Origin: a virus | Reading direction: 5' to 3' (one strand) | Virus record (IMG/VR): IMGVR_UViG_3300025896_000032 | Location: 1-58,244 of that record | DNA length: 58,244 nt | Part shown: one piece after another, positions 12,015-55,033 of the stretch | Position numbering within the stretch: position 1 is the first letter of the stretch | Layout: each line of letters opens with the position of its first letter | Program-made: the position numbers and the translations under genes | The notes under the pieces: model-generated | Told to the model about the DNA's origin: nothing | Seen by the model: the letters and a program-made list of their open reading frames with translations, nothing else | Database searches by the model: none

Positions 12015-14432
12015 TCAGGTAAGGCCGGTGCCGCTGATCAACCATTCCGTTGAGGTAACTTTGATTGCAGTCGCAATGCCGTTAGCAGCCAGAGTCCGCG
12101 ACCCAGTTGTTCCTGCACCAGCAAGACGCATCGTGTCTGTCGTAATCGCAATCGTGATAACGCCACCAGCGTTTTGATTCACAAATGTAATGGCTGTCCC
12201 AACGACGTAGGCTACTGAACTATTGGCCGGGATCGTGAACGTGCGAGCGGTTGTATCGGCGCTTGGGTGGAAAAGGTGCTTGCCACCATCAGAGAGAACA
12301 AGCGTGTATGCTGCCGACTGCGAGTTCTGCGGGATTTGCCGCATTGTTCCGATGGAATCGGAAACGGTAGTTCCAACAACAGTACTTGGCGTGGTTGCAC
12401 CCAGAGTTCCGTTGAACGCATTACCAGTGGTAAACGTTTTGTTAGTGGCGGTCTCCACACCGTTCAGCGTCATTGCCGTACCGCCGTTACCGCCGATCTG
12501 AGCGAACACATCCCAAGTTGTACCGGAGTACACGAACTGCACCGACACACCGCTAATATCTAGCGTGAGGTCCGCAGCCGTTCCGTTGATCGTGGAGCCA
12601 TTTCGCCCAACGGTAAGGTTGGTGGTACCAAAGTTGGTGGCGGCATCCGCAATGATGCACATGCTGCCAGCGGATGGCGTAATTGGCAGCGTAACCGTGA
12701 ATGTACCACCCGTGGTGTTTGCGAGCACGCCCTCAAGATTTGCAATCGTGTAGTTGGCGGTCTTGACGACGTAGGTGAGGCCGGGACCAGTTGGTCCGGT
12801 GACACCACTGCTGCCGCTAACGCCCGTGGGGCCGGTGACGCCAGTGGCTCCGGTGGGGCCTGTAACCCCAGCAACCCCAGTGGGGCCTGTAACGCCGGCT
12901 GCACCCGTGGCACCAGTCGAGCCCTGAATGCCAGTTGCTCCCGCAACACCCGTAGCGCCTTGTACGCCGGTTGCCCCAACGGGTCCTGTAACGCCAATTA
13001 CTCCGGTGGCGCCCGTAGGGCCTTGGACTCCCGTAGCGCCTGTGGGACCGGTTACCCCATCGACACCAGTGGGACCCGTGACACCAGCAACTCCGGTAGG
13101 GCCGGTTACCCCTGCTACTCCCGTGGCACCGGTAATTCCAGCCACACCGGTTGGACCAGTGACACCGGCCACACCGGTTGGCCCGGTAACTCCAGCGACA
13201 CCCGTGGCGCCAGTGGATCCCCCTACACCAGAGGCACCGCCAACACCGGTTGCACCGGTCACGCCAGCAACGCCAGTGGCTCCGCTGATGCCAGCCACAC
13301 CAGTGGCACCTGTTGCCCCTGCTGCACCTGTGGCGCCGGCGGGACCAGTCGGTCCTTGGACGCCCGATGTAATCGCCAAGAACAAATCATGGTTTGACGC
13401 AAAGTTGGTCGTTCCAGTGCCACCAGACGAATTAAGCGTACTTGGAATTACCCAATAACTGTTTGCCGCTCCGGGATTCGTGTTAGATGGCGTTGAGGAA
13501 ATCGTCCACTTTTGGAAATTAGCGCTATTGTTTTGGTCCTGAAGCGTAAAGGTTTGCCCGGTCTTCAGAAGATCCAAGAAAATATCTATGTCAGCGCCGT
13601 CGTGCGTCAGATGGCTGACGTTGATGGACGTGGCGCTAATTTGCGTAGCGTTGTTCCAAAGAACGTGCCCGTCAGTGGGATAACCCGTGGTTATACTGAC
13701 GTTAGCGCGGTACAGGAAATAGCTGGATGATGCACCCTGAGGCCCAGTCACTCCGGTGACACCCGTAGCTCCGGTGACGCCAGATACTCCGGTTGCCCCA
13801 GTGATACCAACAGCGCCGGTCGCTCCGGTCACACCAGTGACACCAGTGACTCCGGTAGGCCCGGCAACACCGGTCTGACCAAATGATCCAGTAGGCCCCG
13901 TAGCCCCAACAACGCCCGTGGCGCCAGTTGGACCGGTAACGCCGGTCGCTCCCGTAACCCCCGCAACACCGGTAGCTCCGGTAATTCCGATGGCTCCGGT
14001 TGGACCAGCAACGCCGGTGGGACCCGTAACGCCCGTGGCACCAGCAACGCCAGTCGCACCAGTAGCACCGATAACGCCAGTCGAGCCAGTCGATCCGGTG
14101 GCGCCCGTTTGTCCCGTAGCCCCAGTGGGGCCGGTAATGCCTTGTGGTCCAGTGGATCCCGTTGACCCATTTGGTCCGGTGGGACCGCTAGGACCTTGAA
14201 TGCCAGTTGGCCCAATGGGGCCAGTAGGGCCAGTCGTTCCCTGAGGCCCGGTTGCTCCCGTGGGGCCGCTAGGACCTTGGATTCCGGTTGGACCCGTCGT
14301 TGCCTGCGGACCCGTAGCCCCAGTCGCCCCGATAGGCCCAGTTGGGCCGGATGCACCCGTTGGTCCGATCAGATCAGGGAAAATGACGTCAAAATTGGGG
14401 GGAGTACACCAATTGGGCGGGTTGCAAGACAT
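12015..14432 (-). CDS. Collagen-like fibre protein with two triplet-repeat stalks, 805 aa
   Basis: The protein begins with a short Cys-containing anchor ([17 protein letters not shown]) and enters an uninterrupted Gly-X-Y region of about 200 residues, mostly GPT, GAT and GVT triplets. A beta-rich domain of about 120 residues follows ([19 protein letters not shown]), then a second Gly-X-Y region of about 200 residues, then a C-terminal domain of about 240 residues. Collagen-like phage proteins trimerise into long thin stalks. The triplets are extremely Thr-rich, favouring O-glycosylation, which is notable beside four glycosyltransferase genes. Start 14432 is chosen over a five-residue-longer frame. 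Confidence 0.85.
12782..13370. repeat. Collagen-coding tandem repeat block, distal stalk
   Basis: This DNA is a quasi-periodic array with a 9-base (three-codon) or longer period coding Gly-X-Y triplets on the minus strand. It produces long open frames on both strands, but only the minus frame fits the flanking domains. Such arrays readily change length by slippage or recombination. Confidence 0.8.
13735..14372. repeat. Collagen-coding tandem repeat block, proximal stalk
   Basis: This is the second GXY-coding array of the same gene, encoding the stalk next to the N-terminal anchor. It shares many near-identical segments with the distal block, so recombination between the two would delete the central beta domain. 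Confidence 0.8.
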
Positions 14433-14440
14433 GGCCCAGA

Positions 14441-14794
14441 TTAACAAAAGGAACCGGGCATGGCAACATGCTTGAGTCCACCAACATGCAGTCCGTCGCT
14501 CAATGATAGCAGGGGGCCCGGAGGCCTGCGGCGATTAGGGAAGTGTATCCCCATCATCTTTTTGGTGGCCTTGTTGAACTTGATCTTATTGGCGGGCGCG
14601 TTCTTGAACAGATCCACGTCAAAATCCATCCCGTAGAAATTAACGATATCCTTTAACCACTCTTCACTGCACCCATCTTCTACGGCGCGAAGAAGGATCG
14701 CCCAAGCCAGACCATGCTCTCCCGGGGTAACGTAATCGGTGGAAAATCGGCACCTTCTACCCTCATCAGTATAGTAGCCAGTCTTGGCATTCAT
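14441..14794 (-). CDS. Hypothetical protein, 117 aa
   Basis: The protein is mixed helical, with a motif [26 protein letters not shown] in two helices followed by a basic segment ([16 protein letters not shown]). I recognise no family. It is transcribed away from the capsid gene and is the first gene of the leftward fibre unit; its stop lies nine bases from the collagen-like start. Confidence 0.55.
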
Positions 14795-31790: not shown

Positions 31791-33968
31791 TTACAAATTG
31801 TTGGCGAACAAATCGCCTGTTCCTAAATCGGTATATGCCGCCGTCGATCCTTGCCGCGTGTTGCCGACCGCCAGCGAATAGCTGCAACCGGCATCCATTC
31901 CAATAGCCGTGTCAGTCGAAGCCAAATTGTAGAACGTGTTGCCCGTGCAAGTTCCGCCATTCACGGAATTGAACAAAATTCCGTTCACTACAACCGCTCC
32001 ACCCTGACCGCCCAAAAAACACCCAGTAACGCTCACGCCAGTAGCGTTCTTGACGTTTATAACGTAACCCGCCGCCCCACCGTTCGCACTCGCATTGATC
32101 GCACTCACCGTCGTGCTATACACCCCGTCCGTGTAAACCGCCGAATACTTTGCGCCGTAATCGCCACCAATCACGTTACAGACACTTCCTGCGCTGCTAT
32201 TCACGAAATACACCCCGTAATCCACCACGATCATCGTGCAGTCGATCACCTCAAGCCCTTCCAGCCGGTTAGACAAGCTCCCGGTCCCGTCAGCCTGAAT
32301 CCCATACGTCCCACCCTGCATCCAGCAATTCGTCACCTTAAAGCCGCTCGTCGCACCGTTCGCGCCCCTAATGCGGATACTAGCCGACGAACAGTTGAAC
32401 TGGCAATTGTCCACATAGACGTTGATCCAGTTGTATAGGTCCAAACCGATGGCAAAATATGTGCTGCCATTTGTGGACTGAAAAAACGCCACCCGACTGA
32501 TCCGCGTCCCCTGCAACTGCGCATCCGTCCCAGAACTCGTCAGAGTCAGCCCGTTGTAGCCAGCCACCGAATTAGCCACCAACGAGAAGTCCGTAAAGGT
32601 GCATGGCGCGTCACTTGTATATGTCCCGCCACCAGCCGCCCGCGTCACCGACATTCCCCCATTCGTCGAAGCGTCGGAAAAGTAAAGTTGGCTCACCCCA
32701 ATGCCATCCCCACGCATACTGAACGCCTGCCCGTTGTTGTTGAGCGCCACCGGCAACGCCGCACTCGACTTGTAAATGCCCATCGGAAGATACAGGCAAA
32801 ACGGTTTCGTCGTCGCTATCCCAGCCGCAATCGCCGCCGCAATCGCCGCGTAGTCGTCCGTGCTCCCGTTCCCCACCGCACCCCAATCCTTCACGTTGAA
32901 TACGTCAGGACCGTACCATCCCACATCTGCGGAAGTGGTACTGTTTTTGGCGAGTCTGGCATACTTTACCCCGCCGCTCGGTACGCCGGATCCTGCCGGA
33001 CCGGTCGGGCCGGTGGGGCCGGTGGACCCCGATGCGCCAGTAGGGCCGGTGGGGCCGACGGAACCGCCGGAGGCGCCGTAGAATGCCGCAATGATGCTGG
33101 CCTCGGTCGTTCCGCCGCAAGTTAGCTCAACACGGATGGACTCGCCGATGGCAAGACTGGTTGGGAGAGCCCCGGACGCAAGCTGCCAAGCCGCCGGCCA
33201 CGAAAGGCTGATGATGGACCCGGCCGTATTCGTCAGATCTAGCGTCTGCATGCGCCCTCGGACCATTCCGTAGGAGCTGGTGACGGACATATTTACGCCC
33301 ACGTCAATTTGGGCGTAAGAGCCGAGATCGAAACGAAGTTGAATTACGCCGCCACCGGTATACGCCACCGCGTAGCGCGTGATGCTCGTGACGTTGGAGA
33401 GAAGGTTTACCGTGGGATTCGGATAGTTACCCGTGAGATCTCCGCCGGCAGCGCCAGAAATGCTACCAGCAGGACCAGTAGCCCCAGTGACGCCGACACC
33501 CGTTGGACCTGTTACCCCGGTTACACCAGTGGAACCCGTGGCTCCGGTCGGTCCAGCAATTCCGGTTGCGCCCGTAGGGCCAGTAGAACCTACGGCTCCG
33601 GATGGACCCGTAGCACCCGATACACCAACGCCAGTGGGACCGGTCACTCCAGTTACGCCAGTGGAACCCGTGGCTCCTTGGACGCTAGCTGGGCCGGGGG
33701 CTCCGGTAGGGCCGGCTGGACCCGTGGACCCAGTAACGCCATAGGGTCCAGTAGCGCCCGTCACGCCCGCTCCGGTGGCCCCAGTGGCTCCCGGACCACC
33801 CGCTGGACCTGTTGGTCCCGTTTCCCCGCCACCCCCACCCCCACCGCTACCCGCTGGTCCGGCTGGACCTTGGAGACCCTGAGGACCAGTGGCGCCAGTA
33901 GCCCCTAGCGTTCCGTCCGGGGTAACCGTAATGGGTTGTACGACGTAATTAAGGGGATTATCGGCCAT
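31791..33968 (-). CDS. Tailspike with collagen-like neck, knob domain and right-handed beta-helix, 725 aa
   Basis: The N-terminal 180 residues are mostly Gly-X-Y triplets, followed by a knob domain (about residues 205-300), then more triplets, and from about residue 361 the signature [20 protein letters not shown] of pectate-lyase-like beta-helix tailspikes. The following 350 residues show the regular short beta turns of a right-handed helix. Such proteins cleave or bind host surface polysaccharide. Catalytic residues cannot be assigned from sequence alone. It is the best candidate for the receptor-binding depolymerase. Confidence 0.85.
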
Positions 33969-34340: not shown

Positions 34341-35207
34341 CTACGCAATCCATGCCGCGACGATACCGCTGTCGACGCCAGTCCATGCCATGATGGCTAG
34401 TTGGGCTGTCTTACCTGCACCGAGAGTGGTGGGGGCGCCGACCGCCGATGGAAGCCAAGTCCACCCAGCCGGGAATGATACGTTTCGGGTGGATGCACCG
34501 GCAGTGACGCAGACCAGAATCGATTGGCCCTGCTGAATGTTGCTGGTGGCGAAAACAGTATCACCCAGCATGGTGAGTAATTGGGCGTCTCCCTGAGTAA
34601 AATCGATAGTGGATGTACCGCCATACGATACTGTTCCAACAATTGCCGGGAATCGCCTGACAGTAACGCTACTTGGTCCCGAAATATCGTTGGCGAGACT
34701 AAACTGGTACGTTCCAGCAACAGAAGTAATCCCGATTTGACCCGATACACCGGTCATCAATGGGGCGGGACCGGTTTGTCCGGTTGGACCCTGAGCACCC
34801 GTAGCCCCAGCGGGACCACCAGATGGGCCGGTGGCACCAGCCGGACCCGATGAACCAGTGGCACCAAAATCTCCAGTATTTCCCTGTGGACCCAATGGAC
34901 CGGTAGCTCCCTGAATCCCGGTAGGGCCAACAGAGCCAGTGGCTCCGATCACGCCGATATCGCCTTGGGGGCCAGAGATGCCTTGGGCTCCCTGAGGTCC
35001 AGTAGGGCCCATTACGCCAGTAGCACCCGTTGCTCCTTGGGCTCCGGTAGCTCCCGTGGCTCCAGTGGCTCCCGTTGGACCAGAGGGGCCGCTAGGGCCA
35101 TTAGCGGGGCCGGTAGGGCCAAGCGGACCAGTTGCACCAGTAGGGCCTACAACGCCCTTGAATAGGTACGCCACTGTCGGGGGAATCATGCAACTGGAGT
35201 CGGCCAT
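34341..35207 (-). CDS. Collagen-like protein with knob domain, 288 aa
   Basis: I use the ATG at 35207, since 21 extra upstream residues have no protein-like character. The anchor ([19 protein letters not shown]) leads into about 130 residues of Gly-X-Y triplets and then a beta knob of about 120 residues, whose end ([17 protein letters not shown]) resembles the knobs of the two genes above. It is the first gene of the second fibre cluster, divergent from the plus-strand glycosyltransferase. Confidence 0.75.
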
Positions 35208-35275
35208 GGGATTATGATAGGGTTTCAAATAGGCTGGCGCAACCTCATTAGAACGTACACATTTACGCAACCAAG

Positions 35276-51392: not shown

Positions 51393-51485
51393 GGCGAGGG
51401 TCTGAAGGCTGAGGGATGAAAGGTCGAGGAAGCGGTCGAGTCTGTTAAAGTCAACGTTAGGAGCTGAGGTCAAAACGTCCAAGTG

Positions 51486-51605
51486 AGGATTGCGCTTCGG
51501 ATTGCGCTTGGCGTTCGGATTGCGCTTCGGATTGGCCTTTGGATTGCGGATTGCGATTGGCATTTGGATTGTGGATTGGGATTGGATTTCGGATTGGGAT
51601 TGGAT
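51486..51605. repeat. GGATTG repeat cluster A
   Basis: The plus strand holds about 13 irregular copies of GGATTG, often as GGATTGCGCTTC or GGATTGGGATTGG. The same motif recurs in two other clusters of this accessory region. No gene uses them convincingly. The motif's density suggests binding sites (iterons), a replication origin or transcription-linked sites. Confidence 0.7.
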
Positions 51606-51737
51606 TCGTGAATGGCCAATTCGCATTTAGCAAATCAATTTCCTAAAATAAAAGCTTGAGCCGATCAATTCGCTTCGCCAATATTTCCGCAGAACTGACG
51701 CAACGTTGGTTCACTCAACACAACACGCACAAAACAT

Positions 51738-52457
51738 ATGCACTACTTAACGACACAAAACGCCAAGACGACTAAGGGGGAATCACTGGGATATTTAACA
51801 GGGATACTTTATCTCGCACCGCACACCATTGCAGGCCGAAAGACTGTTTGCGCCTTTGCTTCCGTGGAGTGCATGCTTGCGTGCCTTTACACCGCCGGCA
51901 TGGGTGCCTTTTCCAACGTGCAGCAAGCGCGAATCAATAAGACGCGTGCTTTCTGGCAAGATCCAAAGGCCTTTGTCGAAATGCTGGCGGATGATATCAC
52001 GTCATTAATCCGCATGGCCAAAGCGCAGAGGCTAAAACCGTGCGTCAGACTCAACGGAACGTCAGACCTTCCTTGGGAAAACCTAGGCGGCACCGTTGGC
52101 GCTTCTCTCATGAAGCGTTTCCCCAAGGTGCAGTTCTATGATTACACCAAAAACCCGAGCAAGGCGCTTTCCTTCGCGAACGGCAACTTGCCCGCAAATT
52201 ATCAAATCACCTTCTCGCTCAGCGAGACCAACAAAGAGAAGGCCTTTGAACTCTTGAGCGTTGGCGTGAACGTGGCGGCGGTCTTTGCCACGAAGAAGAA
52301 CGAAGAACTTCCTTTATGGCACAAGGGCCACGGCGTCACCAACGGCGACAAGCACGACCTGCGCTTCCTCGATCCTAGGGGCTGCATTGTCGGTCTTCGC
52401 GCCAAGGGGAAAGCCAAGGGCGTCGCGGGTGGCTTTGTCTTGGACCCTCAGGAATAA
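51738..52457 (+). CDS. GP88-type phage protein, 239 aa
   Basis: It matches the phage gene-88 family: NAKTTKGESLGYLTGILYLA at the start, a Cys-containing CAFASVECMLACLYTAGMG, RLNGTSDLPWE near residue 105, then FYDYTKNPSKAL and a C-terminal DLRFLDPRGCIVGL. The family is known mainly from phages and its role is unknown to me. The two Cys pairs could form a metal site. The leader is A/C-rich with no Shine-Dalgarno site, and a terminator follows. Confidence 0.8.
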   Translation: MHYLTTQNAKTTKGESLGYLTGILYLAPHTIAGRKTVCAFASVECMLACLYTAGMGAFSNVQQARINKTRAFWQDPKAFVEMLADDITSLIRMAKAQRLKPCVRLNGTSDLPWENLGGTVGASLMKRFPKVQFYDYTKNPSKALSFANGNLPANYQITFSLSETNKEKAFELLSVGVNVAAVFATKKNEELPLWHKGHGVTNGDKHDLRFLDPRGCIVGLRAKGKAKGVAGGFVLDPQE

Positions 52458-52476: not shown

Positions 52477-52504
52477 AGCCCGGGCTAACCCCCCGGGCTT
52501 TTTC
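52477..52504 (+). terminator. Rho-independent terminator of the GP88 gene
   Basis: AGCCCGGG (52477-52484) pairs with CCCGGGCT (52492-52499), followed by TTTTT. It lies 20 bases after the stop. Confidence 0.9.
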
Positions 52505-52757: not shown

Positions 52758-52886
52758 GTTGGGATTGAGCTATCGGGATTAACCATCGCCATTGCCCGAT
52801 CGGATAGTGCTAGCGATTGGGATTGAGATTGGGATTGGCGGATTGGATTGGGATTGGGATTGGCCAATTGGTGATTGGGATTGGCG
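52758..52886. repeat. GGATTG repeat cluster B
   Basis: Dense copies of GATTGGGATTGG, GGATTGGATTGG and GATTGAGATTGGG occur, thickest from 52814 to 52886. The cluster sits in a 490-base gap between two genes. On the minus strand it leads toward the terminator at 52585-52621. Confidence 0.7.
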
Positions 52887-52991: not shown

Positions 52992-53171
52992 ATGAAACTC
53001 CCACCCACCCCACCAACCGAAATCCGCCTCACATCCACGGGACCAATCGCATGCTACGACGGCATCTGGTACTCCGTTAACGGCACCCAGTATGAGGTCG
53101 CGGAAATCCGCTTTGCGATCCCCGCTTGGGACTTGGAGAAGTTCGGCGTGAAGAACGACGCCAAGGGCTGA
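52992..53171 (+). CDS. Small protein, 59 aa
   Basis: An ATG at 52992 opens a 59-codon frame (EIRLTSTGPIACYDGIWYSV, then AEIRFAIPAWDLEKF) ending in TGA at 53169-53171. It has the same leader sequence (ACAAACCAGACACACACATGAAA) as the next gene and its stop begins the first conserved hairpin element. Mixed beta-strand pattern; no family known. It is below common length cut-offs but well supported by its neighbours. Confidence 0.7.
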   Translation: MKLPPTPPTEIRLTSTGPIACYDGIWYSVNGTQYEVAEIRFAIPAWDLEKFGVKNDAKG

Positions 53172-53214
53172 CTCAACACCCAGCTGCCTCCGGGCGGCTG
53201 ACCTGTTCAGTTAA
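53169..53214 (+). ncRNA. Intercistronic hairpin element, copy 1
   Basis: The element begins at the TGA stop of the previous gene and reads TGACTCAACACC, hairpin CAGCTGCC-TCCG-GGCGGCTG, then ACCTGTTCAGTTAA. The flanks can pair over about nine of ten positions (TGACTCAACA with TGTTCAGTTA), enclosing the inner hairpin. Two further copies follow, with changes that keep the pairing. Confidence 0.75.
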
Positions 53215-53233
53215 CCACAAACCAGACACACAC

Positions 53234-53476
53234 ATGAAAAACGCCCGCCAGACCAACATTAAATTCATCACCCACATCATGAACCACTCCGCGCACGGCG
53301 CGTTGATGCAGGCCTTCATCTTGGAGGCTTGCGGCAAGTACAGCGCAAACGTTGTCGCCAACGAGCAGGCTCTCCGCGAGAGCATGAAGGATAGCTTTAT
53401 CACCCCGGACGCATGGGTGGGGTGCGCCAAGGAGCTCGCTGGCCTTCTGGATAAGAGGTTCACGCAAAGCAGCTGA
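53234..53476 (+). CDS. Small protein, 80 aa
   Basis: I use the ATG at 53234, directly after the leader AACCAGACACACACATG; the longer frame covers the hairpin element. The protein is helical and neutral (HIMNHSAHGALMQAFILEAC, EQALRESMKDSFITPDAW). Its stop TGA begins the second hairpin element. No family is recognised. Confidence 0.65.
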   Translation: MKNARQTNIKFITHIMNHSAHGALMQAFILEACGKYSANVVANEQALRESMKDSFITPDAWVGCAKELAGLLDKRFTQSS

Positions 53477-53523
53477 CTCAACACCCAGCCCCTCCTCACG
53501 GGGTGGCTGGCCTGTTCAGTTAA
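53474..53523 (+). ncRNA. Intercistronic hairpin element, copy 2
   Basis: It begins at the TGA stop and repeats TGACTCAACACC, then CCAGCCCCTCC-TCAC-GGGGTGGCTGG (ten of eleven pairs), then CCTGTTCAGTTAA. The arms differ from copy 1 at several places, but the pairs are kept. Confidence 0.75.
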
Positions 53524-53549
53524 CCCCAACCCCCAACCAAATCCACCAA

Positions 53550-53792
53550 ATGAAACCTGAATCAAAATCCGACCTTGGCCCGTTCCATGTTGAGTTCTCC
53601 AAGGGCGAAGAAATTCGCACCCATCAGACATTTTCGGACATTCCCAGCCAAGCGGCTTTCCCTTACGCGAAGGATCGCGCAATCCGCGCCGCCCATCGCT
53701 GGCTCCGCGAAACTCCCGGCGGCATGGTTCACATCACGCACCCTTCCGGCAACGTGAACACCATTGAACAGAATCCGCTGCGCGTTTCTTAA
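53550..53792 (+). CDS. Small protein, 80 aa
   Basis: A protein with a charged, beta-like N-terminus (FHVEFSKGEEIRTHQTFSDI) and a basic central helix (AKDRAIRAAHRWLRETPGG), ending in a short beta stretch. There is no known family. Its TAA stop starts the third hairpin element, the fixed order that ties these genes together. Confidence 0.65.
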   Translation: MKPESKSDLGPFHVEFSKGEEIRTHQTFSDIPSQAAFPYAKDRAIRAAHRWLRETPGGMVHITHPSGNVNTIEQNPLRVS

Positions 53793-53840
53793 TTCAACAC
53801 CCAGCTACTCCTTTAAGGGGTGGCTGGCTTGTTCAGTTAA
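53790..53840 (+). ncRNA. Intercistronic hairpin element, copy 3
   Basis: It begins at the TAA stop with TAATTCAACACC, then CCAGCTACTCC-TTTAA-GGGGTGGCTGG (eleven pairs including two G-U pairs), then CTTGTTCAGTTAA. Where the outer stem changes from TGACT to TAATT, pairing with AGTTA is kept as A-T and T-G pairs. Confidence 0.75.
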
Positions 53841-53862
53841 ACCCAAACGATAAATCAGACAC

Positions 53863-54279: not shown

Positions 54280-54294
54280 CCTTACGCGCTCCCG

Positions 54295-54334
54295 AGCCCC
54301 AGCTGGTCCGAATGGACTGGTTGGGGCTTTTTTG
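54295..54334 (+). terminator. Rho-independent terminator
   Basis: AGCCCCAGCTGGTCC pairs with GGACTGGTTGGGGCT around GAAT, followed by seven T. It closes the plus-strand unit that begins at 52992. Confidence 0.9.
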
Positions 54335-54896: not shown

Positions 54897-55033
54897 TCCA
54901 TTGGATTGACCATTCGGATTGCCGTCAAGCATTGATATTGGGATTCGCATTGGATTGGGGATTGGGGATTGGCATTGGGGATTCGCCATTGGATTGGATT
55001 GGCATTGGTATTGGCGGATTGGCGGATTGGCGT
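54897..55033. repeat. GGATTG repeat cluster C
   Basis: The plus strand has about 15 copies of ATTGG/GGATTG in forms such as GGATTGGGGATTGG and GGCGGATTGG. It is directly downstream of the leftward operon's last gene (55035) and before the hairpin at 54826-54879. It is the third cluster of the same motif. Confidence 0.7.

Follow-up and report, generated by a model that had tools for sequence, protein, structure and literature searches.

Hairpins between the cistrons of phage mRNAs are already known. In the early mRNA of phage T7, the sites R0.3, R0.5, R1, R1.1 and R1.3 are intercistronic, are repeated along a polycistronic message of small genes and form irregular two-tier hairpins with an internal loop. 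The enzyme that recognizes them, RNase III, needs about two helical turns of double strand, and 17–26 base pairs come to about that length. The REP/PU extragenic palindromes of enterobacteria (e.g., at malE-malF) are imperfect palindromes placed right after stop codons, where they stabilise the upstream mRNA; REP sequences are repeated on chromosomes, share a conserved foot tetranucleotide and are mobilised by a transposase. Among the T7 sites, R1.1 is described as a structured early-region RNA of 60 nt whose internal loop is asymmetric (PMC6121014). Cluster K mycobacteriophages carry ESAS, repeated imperfect inverted repeats that lie upstream of many small genes and are conserved across phages (PMC3203893).

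Here we describe a repeated hairpin element in a phage genome that we call the window: the whole stretch of DNA analysed, which at 58,244 nt is a complete IMG/VR virus record and carries a terminal repeat of 174 nt. Four small plus-strand ORFs lie near its right end, downstream of the GP88 gene, and each of the three junctions between them holds a copy of the element, 46–51 nt long, with the repeated arms TCAACACC / TGTTCAGTTAA (Table 1). We infer that ORF1–ORF4 are co-transcribed. A Shine-Dalgarno (SD)-like motif was present at 1 of the 33 gene starts of the window, and this near-absence, together with the A/C-rich leaders of the operon, suggests a host with SD-independent initiation. Degenerate GGATTGGGATTGG repeats, possibly promoter or origin repeats, occupy intergenic positions 51479–51621, 52788–52880 and 54903–55022 of the window, adjoining small-gene operons. 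Long collagen-like Gly-X-Y repeat proteins are encoded at 12015–14447, 31791–33968 and 34341–35270.

Table 1 Features of the small-gene operon and its surroundings in the window.
Feature	Positions	Strand	Basis or description
GP88 (PF17338) gene	51738..52457	+	family match
Terminator-like hairpin with T-run, 3' of GP88 gene and 5' of small-gene operon	52477..52504	+	inspection only; absent from terminator-scan list
ORF1, 59 aa	52992..53171	+	no family match
Element copy 1, 17 pairs	53169..53214	+	starts at ORF1 TGA; 2x3 internal loop, 8-bp upper stem, TCCG tetraloop
ORF2 leader, A/C-rich, G-poor, no Shine-Dalgarno	53215..53233	+	near-identical leader before ORF1
ORF2, 80 aa, phrog_7895 (unknown function)	53234..53476	+	family match
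Element copy 2, 19 pairs	53474..53523	+	starts at ORF2 TGA; 1x2 internal loop, 10-pair upper stem with one C.U mismatch
ORF3 leader, A/C-rich, no G, no Shine-Dalgarno	53524..53549	+	with copy 2, 87% identical to L135 2689–2767
ORF3, 80 aa	53550..53792	+	no significant family match; L135 has an unrelated 94-aa ORF there
Element copy 3, 21 pairs	53790..53840	+	starts at ORF3 TAA; 1x2 internal loop, 12-pair upper stem
ORF4 leader, G-poor	53841..53862	+	L135 counterpart nearly identical
ORF4, 138 aa	53863..54279	+	83% identical L135 homologue behind orthologous element
T-run intrinsic terminator after ORF4, operon end	54294..54329	+	terminator scan

All three copies share one architecture: a 9-bp lower stem with a single C.C mismatch that includes the upstream stop codon, a small asymmetric internal loop, an upper stem of 8–12 bp and a loop of 3–4 nt, with the next ATG 19–26 nt beyond the end of the element. 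A sequence-only reading of this DNA had proposed three copies with these arms, each starting at the upstream stop and forming a folded RNA. Each copy was found in its place, and the lower stem pairs at 9 of 10 positions, as that reading had stated for the outer flanks. As plus-strand RNA, copies 1–3 fold at −22.0, −23.5 and −24.1 kcal/mol with z scores of −4.5, −3.7 and −5.4, and no dinucleotide shuffle equalled them; the window's other co-directional gaps gave z scores of −1.2 to +1.0 and no comparable hairpin. Searched with a covariance model (CM), the full 58,244 nt yielded exactly three strong plus-strand matches, with E from 1e-15 to 1e-18, and no fourth copy; the model's remaining matches in the window were weak or fell on the reverse strand of the same three copies. 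An Rfam cmscan of the window returned 0 matches above the gathering score.

The element resembles each of the systems above in part. Like ESAS, it is a repeated imperfect inverted repeat before small phage genes. ESAS, however, is tied to SAS at the downstream start and has 17-bp repeats with variable spacers, whereas the anchor in the window is the upstream stop; the SAS motif GGGATAGGAGCCC had 12 matches in the window at three or fewer mismatches against 19 expected, none of them in the leaders. Like REP/PU, the element is an imperfect palindrome right after a stop and between genes; unlike REP as generally described, it pairs the stop codon itself and varies in sequence while pairing is kept. 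With intrinsic terminators it shares a stem-loop after the stop codon, but it lacks a U-tract (the 8 nt that follow each window copy contain 0 T) and true terminators bound the operon separately. No copy was listed by the terminator scan, and we rejected the intrinsic terminator as an explanation, in agreement with the sequence-only reading. Weak or factor-dependent attenuators that grade expression along the operon would likewise place GC-rich stem-loops 3' of genes, as seen here; with 0–1 T among the 8 nt that follow the stem, none of the three in the terminator scan and separate T-run terminators at the operon's bounds, we regard attenuation as very improbable. The conclusion that the element is a folded RNA on the coding strand, and not a terminator, is supported.

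Copies of the same sequence family occur in a second phage. The contig IMGVR_UViG_3300021963_004940 (L135), found via ORF4, contains two clear copies (E 2.7e-15 and 1.7e-14), both beginning at the TGA of the upstream ORF, and a third, divergent hairpin (E 0.027, z −4.9) at the TGA of a 357-aa ORF that is DUF932-like by inspection. In all five sequence-family copies the stop codon lies within the lower stem, in copy d1 from its second base. L135 otherwise has no similarity to the window detectable by tblastx (E < 1e-4). One block of 86.6% identity runs from the element through the ORF4 stop, and a second, of 87%, comprises copy 2 and its leader up to the start codon (L135 2689–2767). The genes on either side of this second block differ, and because the upstream genes are unrelated, it is the element and not the gene that is conserved. 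The intercistronic unit has thus been kept while genes were exchanged around it. Both blocks would also suit conserved recombination linkers, repeats that act as boundaries for swapping small genes by homologous recombination. We consider this quite improbable: linkers predict neither the strand-specific pairing nor the covarying stop-anchored hairpins at an orthologous position that are described below, and such exchange may be a by-product of the repeats. Readthrough or a frameshift fusion was rejected as a general role, the distance from stop to ATG being 2, 1 and 1 (mod 3) in the window and 0 and 1 in L135.

Beyond L135 the sequence family is sparse. The check named in the sequence-only reading, a covariance-model search of other phages, yielded the two L135 copies (CM E about 1e-14) and no other clear match of this family in the sequences covered. 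Exact and loosened DNA patterns run over IMG/VR and GTDB genomes found no further copy except on the contig L135/L237, and the other loosened-pattern matches either lacked a strong hairpin or lay in AT-rich unrelated sequence. Annotated phage and plasmid records gave no match beyond chance, and the model built on the window element (CM R1) and exact patterns found no copy in 80 GP88 loci. Relatives of the ORF2 protein were absent from the viral contigs searched, and a terminase-pattern search gave no match. A primase search led to the relatives G007–G009; identity between G008 and the window phage is 75% for the terminase, 68% for the primase and 61% for GP88. The small-gene operon of G008 has two comparable hairpins: the first (z −3.6) starts at the TGA stop of its gene, and the second (z −4.2, CM E 0.2) follows closely on a TAA. 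The low-GC relatives G007 and G009 have none in the gaps tested. G008 also has counterpart intergenic repeats in the form CCAATCCCAATCC (L150 1466–1603, 3020–3110 and 4690–4780) and, by inspection, an apparent GroEL-like chaperonin gene just 5' of its small-gene operon (L150 8530–6930, minus strand); collagen-like repeats similar to those of the window occur in G007–G009.

The sequence-only reading had counted covariation among the window copies as good evidence for a folded RNA, but this covariation proved weak. Only 1 of 20 pairs changes on both sides: it is G-C in copy 1, A-U in copy 3 and broken in copy 2 (C.U); the remaining differences that stay paired are one-sided. The changes in the outer pairs of copy 3 do remain paired, as had been noticed, but both are one-sided and lie at the stop codon (TGAC to TAAT). 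With the L135 copies added (n = 5), shuffles still match the covariation in 225 of 500 cases by cells paired and in 283 of 500 by two-sided pairs. Pair retention somewhat exceeds that of a random-substitution null (P of about 0.002–0.04, varying with the transition bias). Covariation within one genome is thus weak support for a folded RNA when taken alone, and the strand asymmetry is better evidence: 92 of 95 cells pair as plus-strand RNA and 78 of 95 as minus-strand RNA. G-U cells number 15 against one A-C cell, although per column the ratio is only about 7 to 1. This excess indicates RNA of the plus strand and disfavours a DNA-level palindrome or operator. Stronger support comes from outside the window, in the L135 copies and in the covarying stop-anchored hairpins of GP88 phages.

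In GP88-bearing phage loci, very stable hairpins recur whose first bases are a stop codon and which precede a G-poor leader and an ATG. They are typically two-tier, of about 20 bp and without a T-run, and one locus can hold several (e.g., L047 at 6944, 8682, 10683 and 11134). Directly 3' of the GP88 stop, a strong hairpin was present in 36 of 78 phage loci; of these 36, 28 were anchored no more than 6 nt from the stop and 7 resembled terminators. An alignment of 12 post-GP88 hairpin sequences at one orthologous position (A4) was paired in 92.5% of cells as the two-tier structure, against 30–43% in slid registers. Both sides had changed in 10 of its 21 pairs, and 0 of 500 shuffles reached the observed values, a significance that is overstated because the aligned phages are related. 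The covariation reaches the stop codon itself: the pair at its second base is GC in five sequences, AU in four and GU in two, TGA standing opposite TCA and TAA opposite TTA.

A model built from these 12 sequences (CM R2) found further copies at other junctions of the same loci (E < 1e-13 for L071, L069 and L058). It did not match the window element, and the families therefore share an architecture but not a demonstrable ancestry. Across unrelated sequence families the hairpins total 17–26 pairs, typically with mismatches and an internal loop. Strong intergenic hairpins are not rarer elsewhere, with 30 in 143 called gaps of unrelated phages and 39 in 165 of GP88 loci. Stop-anchored hairpins show a moderate excess on simple gene calls (26 of 165 gaps in GP88 loci, 11 of 143 in unrelated phages). 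A mechanical scan of all ORF stops was noisy and separated only weakly from shuffles; it was superseded by the called gene gaps and the orthologous GP88 position.

Further hairpins were seen at or next to stop codons. After the GP88 stop of L045–L050 (at 8682) lies a second family, in which the outer arms TTTCCCGCC / CACGGGGAAA are conserved and the inner stem is highly variable yet paired, and after that of L064, L065, L067 and L070 a third, shorter stop-anchored family, TGAACGCGAAGAGCC...GGCTCTTCCTTTCA. Stop-adjacent two-tier hairpins are present in the circular podovirus ctYwJ313 (MW202701; L273 3905–3971 and 4717–4792) and in the cultivated Limnohabitans phage DC31 (L272 3318–3380 and 3849–3938).

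Of the described systems, the T7 sites are the nearest that are well understood. Folded from NC_001604, R0.5 shows an identical two-tier topology with 18 pairs, starting at the gene 0.4 TGA stop; the window element, in its three plus-strand copies between the cistrons ORF1–ORF4, has 17–21 pairs, a 1x1 mismatch and a 1x2 or 2x3 internal loop, an irregular hairpin of about two helical turns. The two differ in that stop anchoring is consistent in the window, whereas among the T7 sites only R0.5, and perhaps R1, is anchored in this way, and in the A/C-rich leaders without SD that follow the window element. In the 5.9 kb early region of T7, the best match of CM R2 was the upper stem at site R1.1 (14.1 bits, E 0.005, a rough value) and its second was site R1.3, aligned only via the outer pairs (E 0.65, also rough). 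The window model, CM R1, failed to single out the T7 sites, scoring E 6 at R1.1.

The likeness to R0.5, the missing U-tract, the separate terminator and the recurrence with covariation lead us to prefer processing of the RNase III type, one of the roles suggested in the sequence-only reading, with an uncut stabiliser next. We hold tentatively, at a little under an even chance, that the element works like an intercistronic processing hairpin of T7. It would act in cis, as an RNA hairpin at every gene junction by which a polycistronic phage mRNA is divided. After termination and departure of the ribosome from the stop codon, the lower stem could close, giving about two turns of irregular double helix, and RNase III of the host, or another nuclease specific for double strands, might then cut at or near the internal loop. 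Such a cut would release the cistrons from one another, each having a structured 3' end and a leader that is short and open, and the small genes could then be expressed and turned over individually. Even uncut, the hairpin could shield the upstream 3' end while the downstream leader stays unpaired.

This last possibility can stand as an explanation of its own, in which the hairpin is an uncut stabiliser or insulator that protects the 3' end from exonucleases and keeps a G-poor leader unpaired for SD-independent initiation. We judge it somewhat unlikely. It accounts for a hairpin right at the stop, for leaders with 0–2 G in 21–28 nt at a near-absence of SD-like motifs, for leaders left unpaired when the window and L135 copies are folded, and for the recurrence in GP88 phages of similar hairpins followed by G-poor leaders. 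It leaves unexplained the retention of a two-tier form with internal loop in place of a simple GC-rich stem, and L273, a phage with SD-like leaders, carries such hairpins too. The pairing of the stop in the lower stem, common to the five family copies and to the GP88 family, where the stop codon covaries, points in another direction, to termination-coupled translational control: a ribosome would open the lower stem, and its closing would either place the start about 20 nt or less from the stop or regulate re-initiation. We find this improbable, because the spacing and frame from stop to ATG vary (gaps of 62–73 nt in the window and 69–70 in L135), no SD lies near the hairpin and a closed stem would block a sliding ribosome rather than guide it. 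Returning to the processing reading and its uncut variant, the window hairpins and similar ones in many phages would most likely cut or insulate a shared message gene by gene.

In the literature searched, which covers the field in part, we found no description of consistent anchoring on a paired, covarying stop, nor of a spread of such hairpins through uncultured phages without SD leaders. It is conceivable, if rather unlikely, that stop-anchored two-tier hairpins form an undescribed and widespread class of phage RNA, in which the paired, covarying stop lets translation termination gate how each cistron is processed or re-used, above all in SD-independent phages. The genes of uncultured phages are mostly small, lack an assigned function and lie tightly together in operons. 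A standard processing hairpin formed on the stop codon, should the junctions between these genes carry one, would supply a recognisable rule by which the phages divide their messages. Covariance could then be used to mark real gene junctions in metagenomes, and the hairpins would be ready test substrates for RNase III and for termination-coupled control outside T7.
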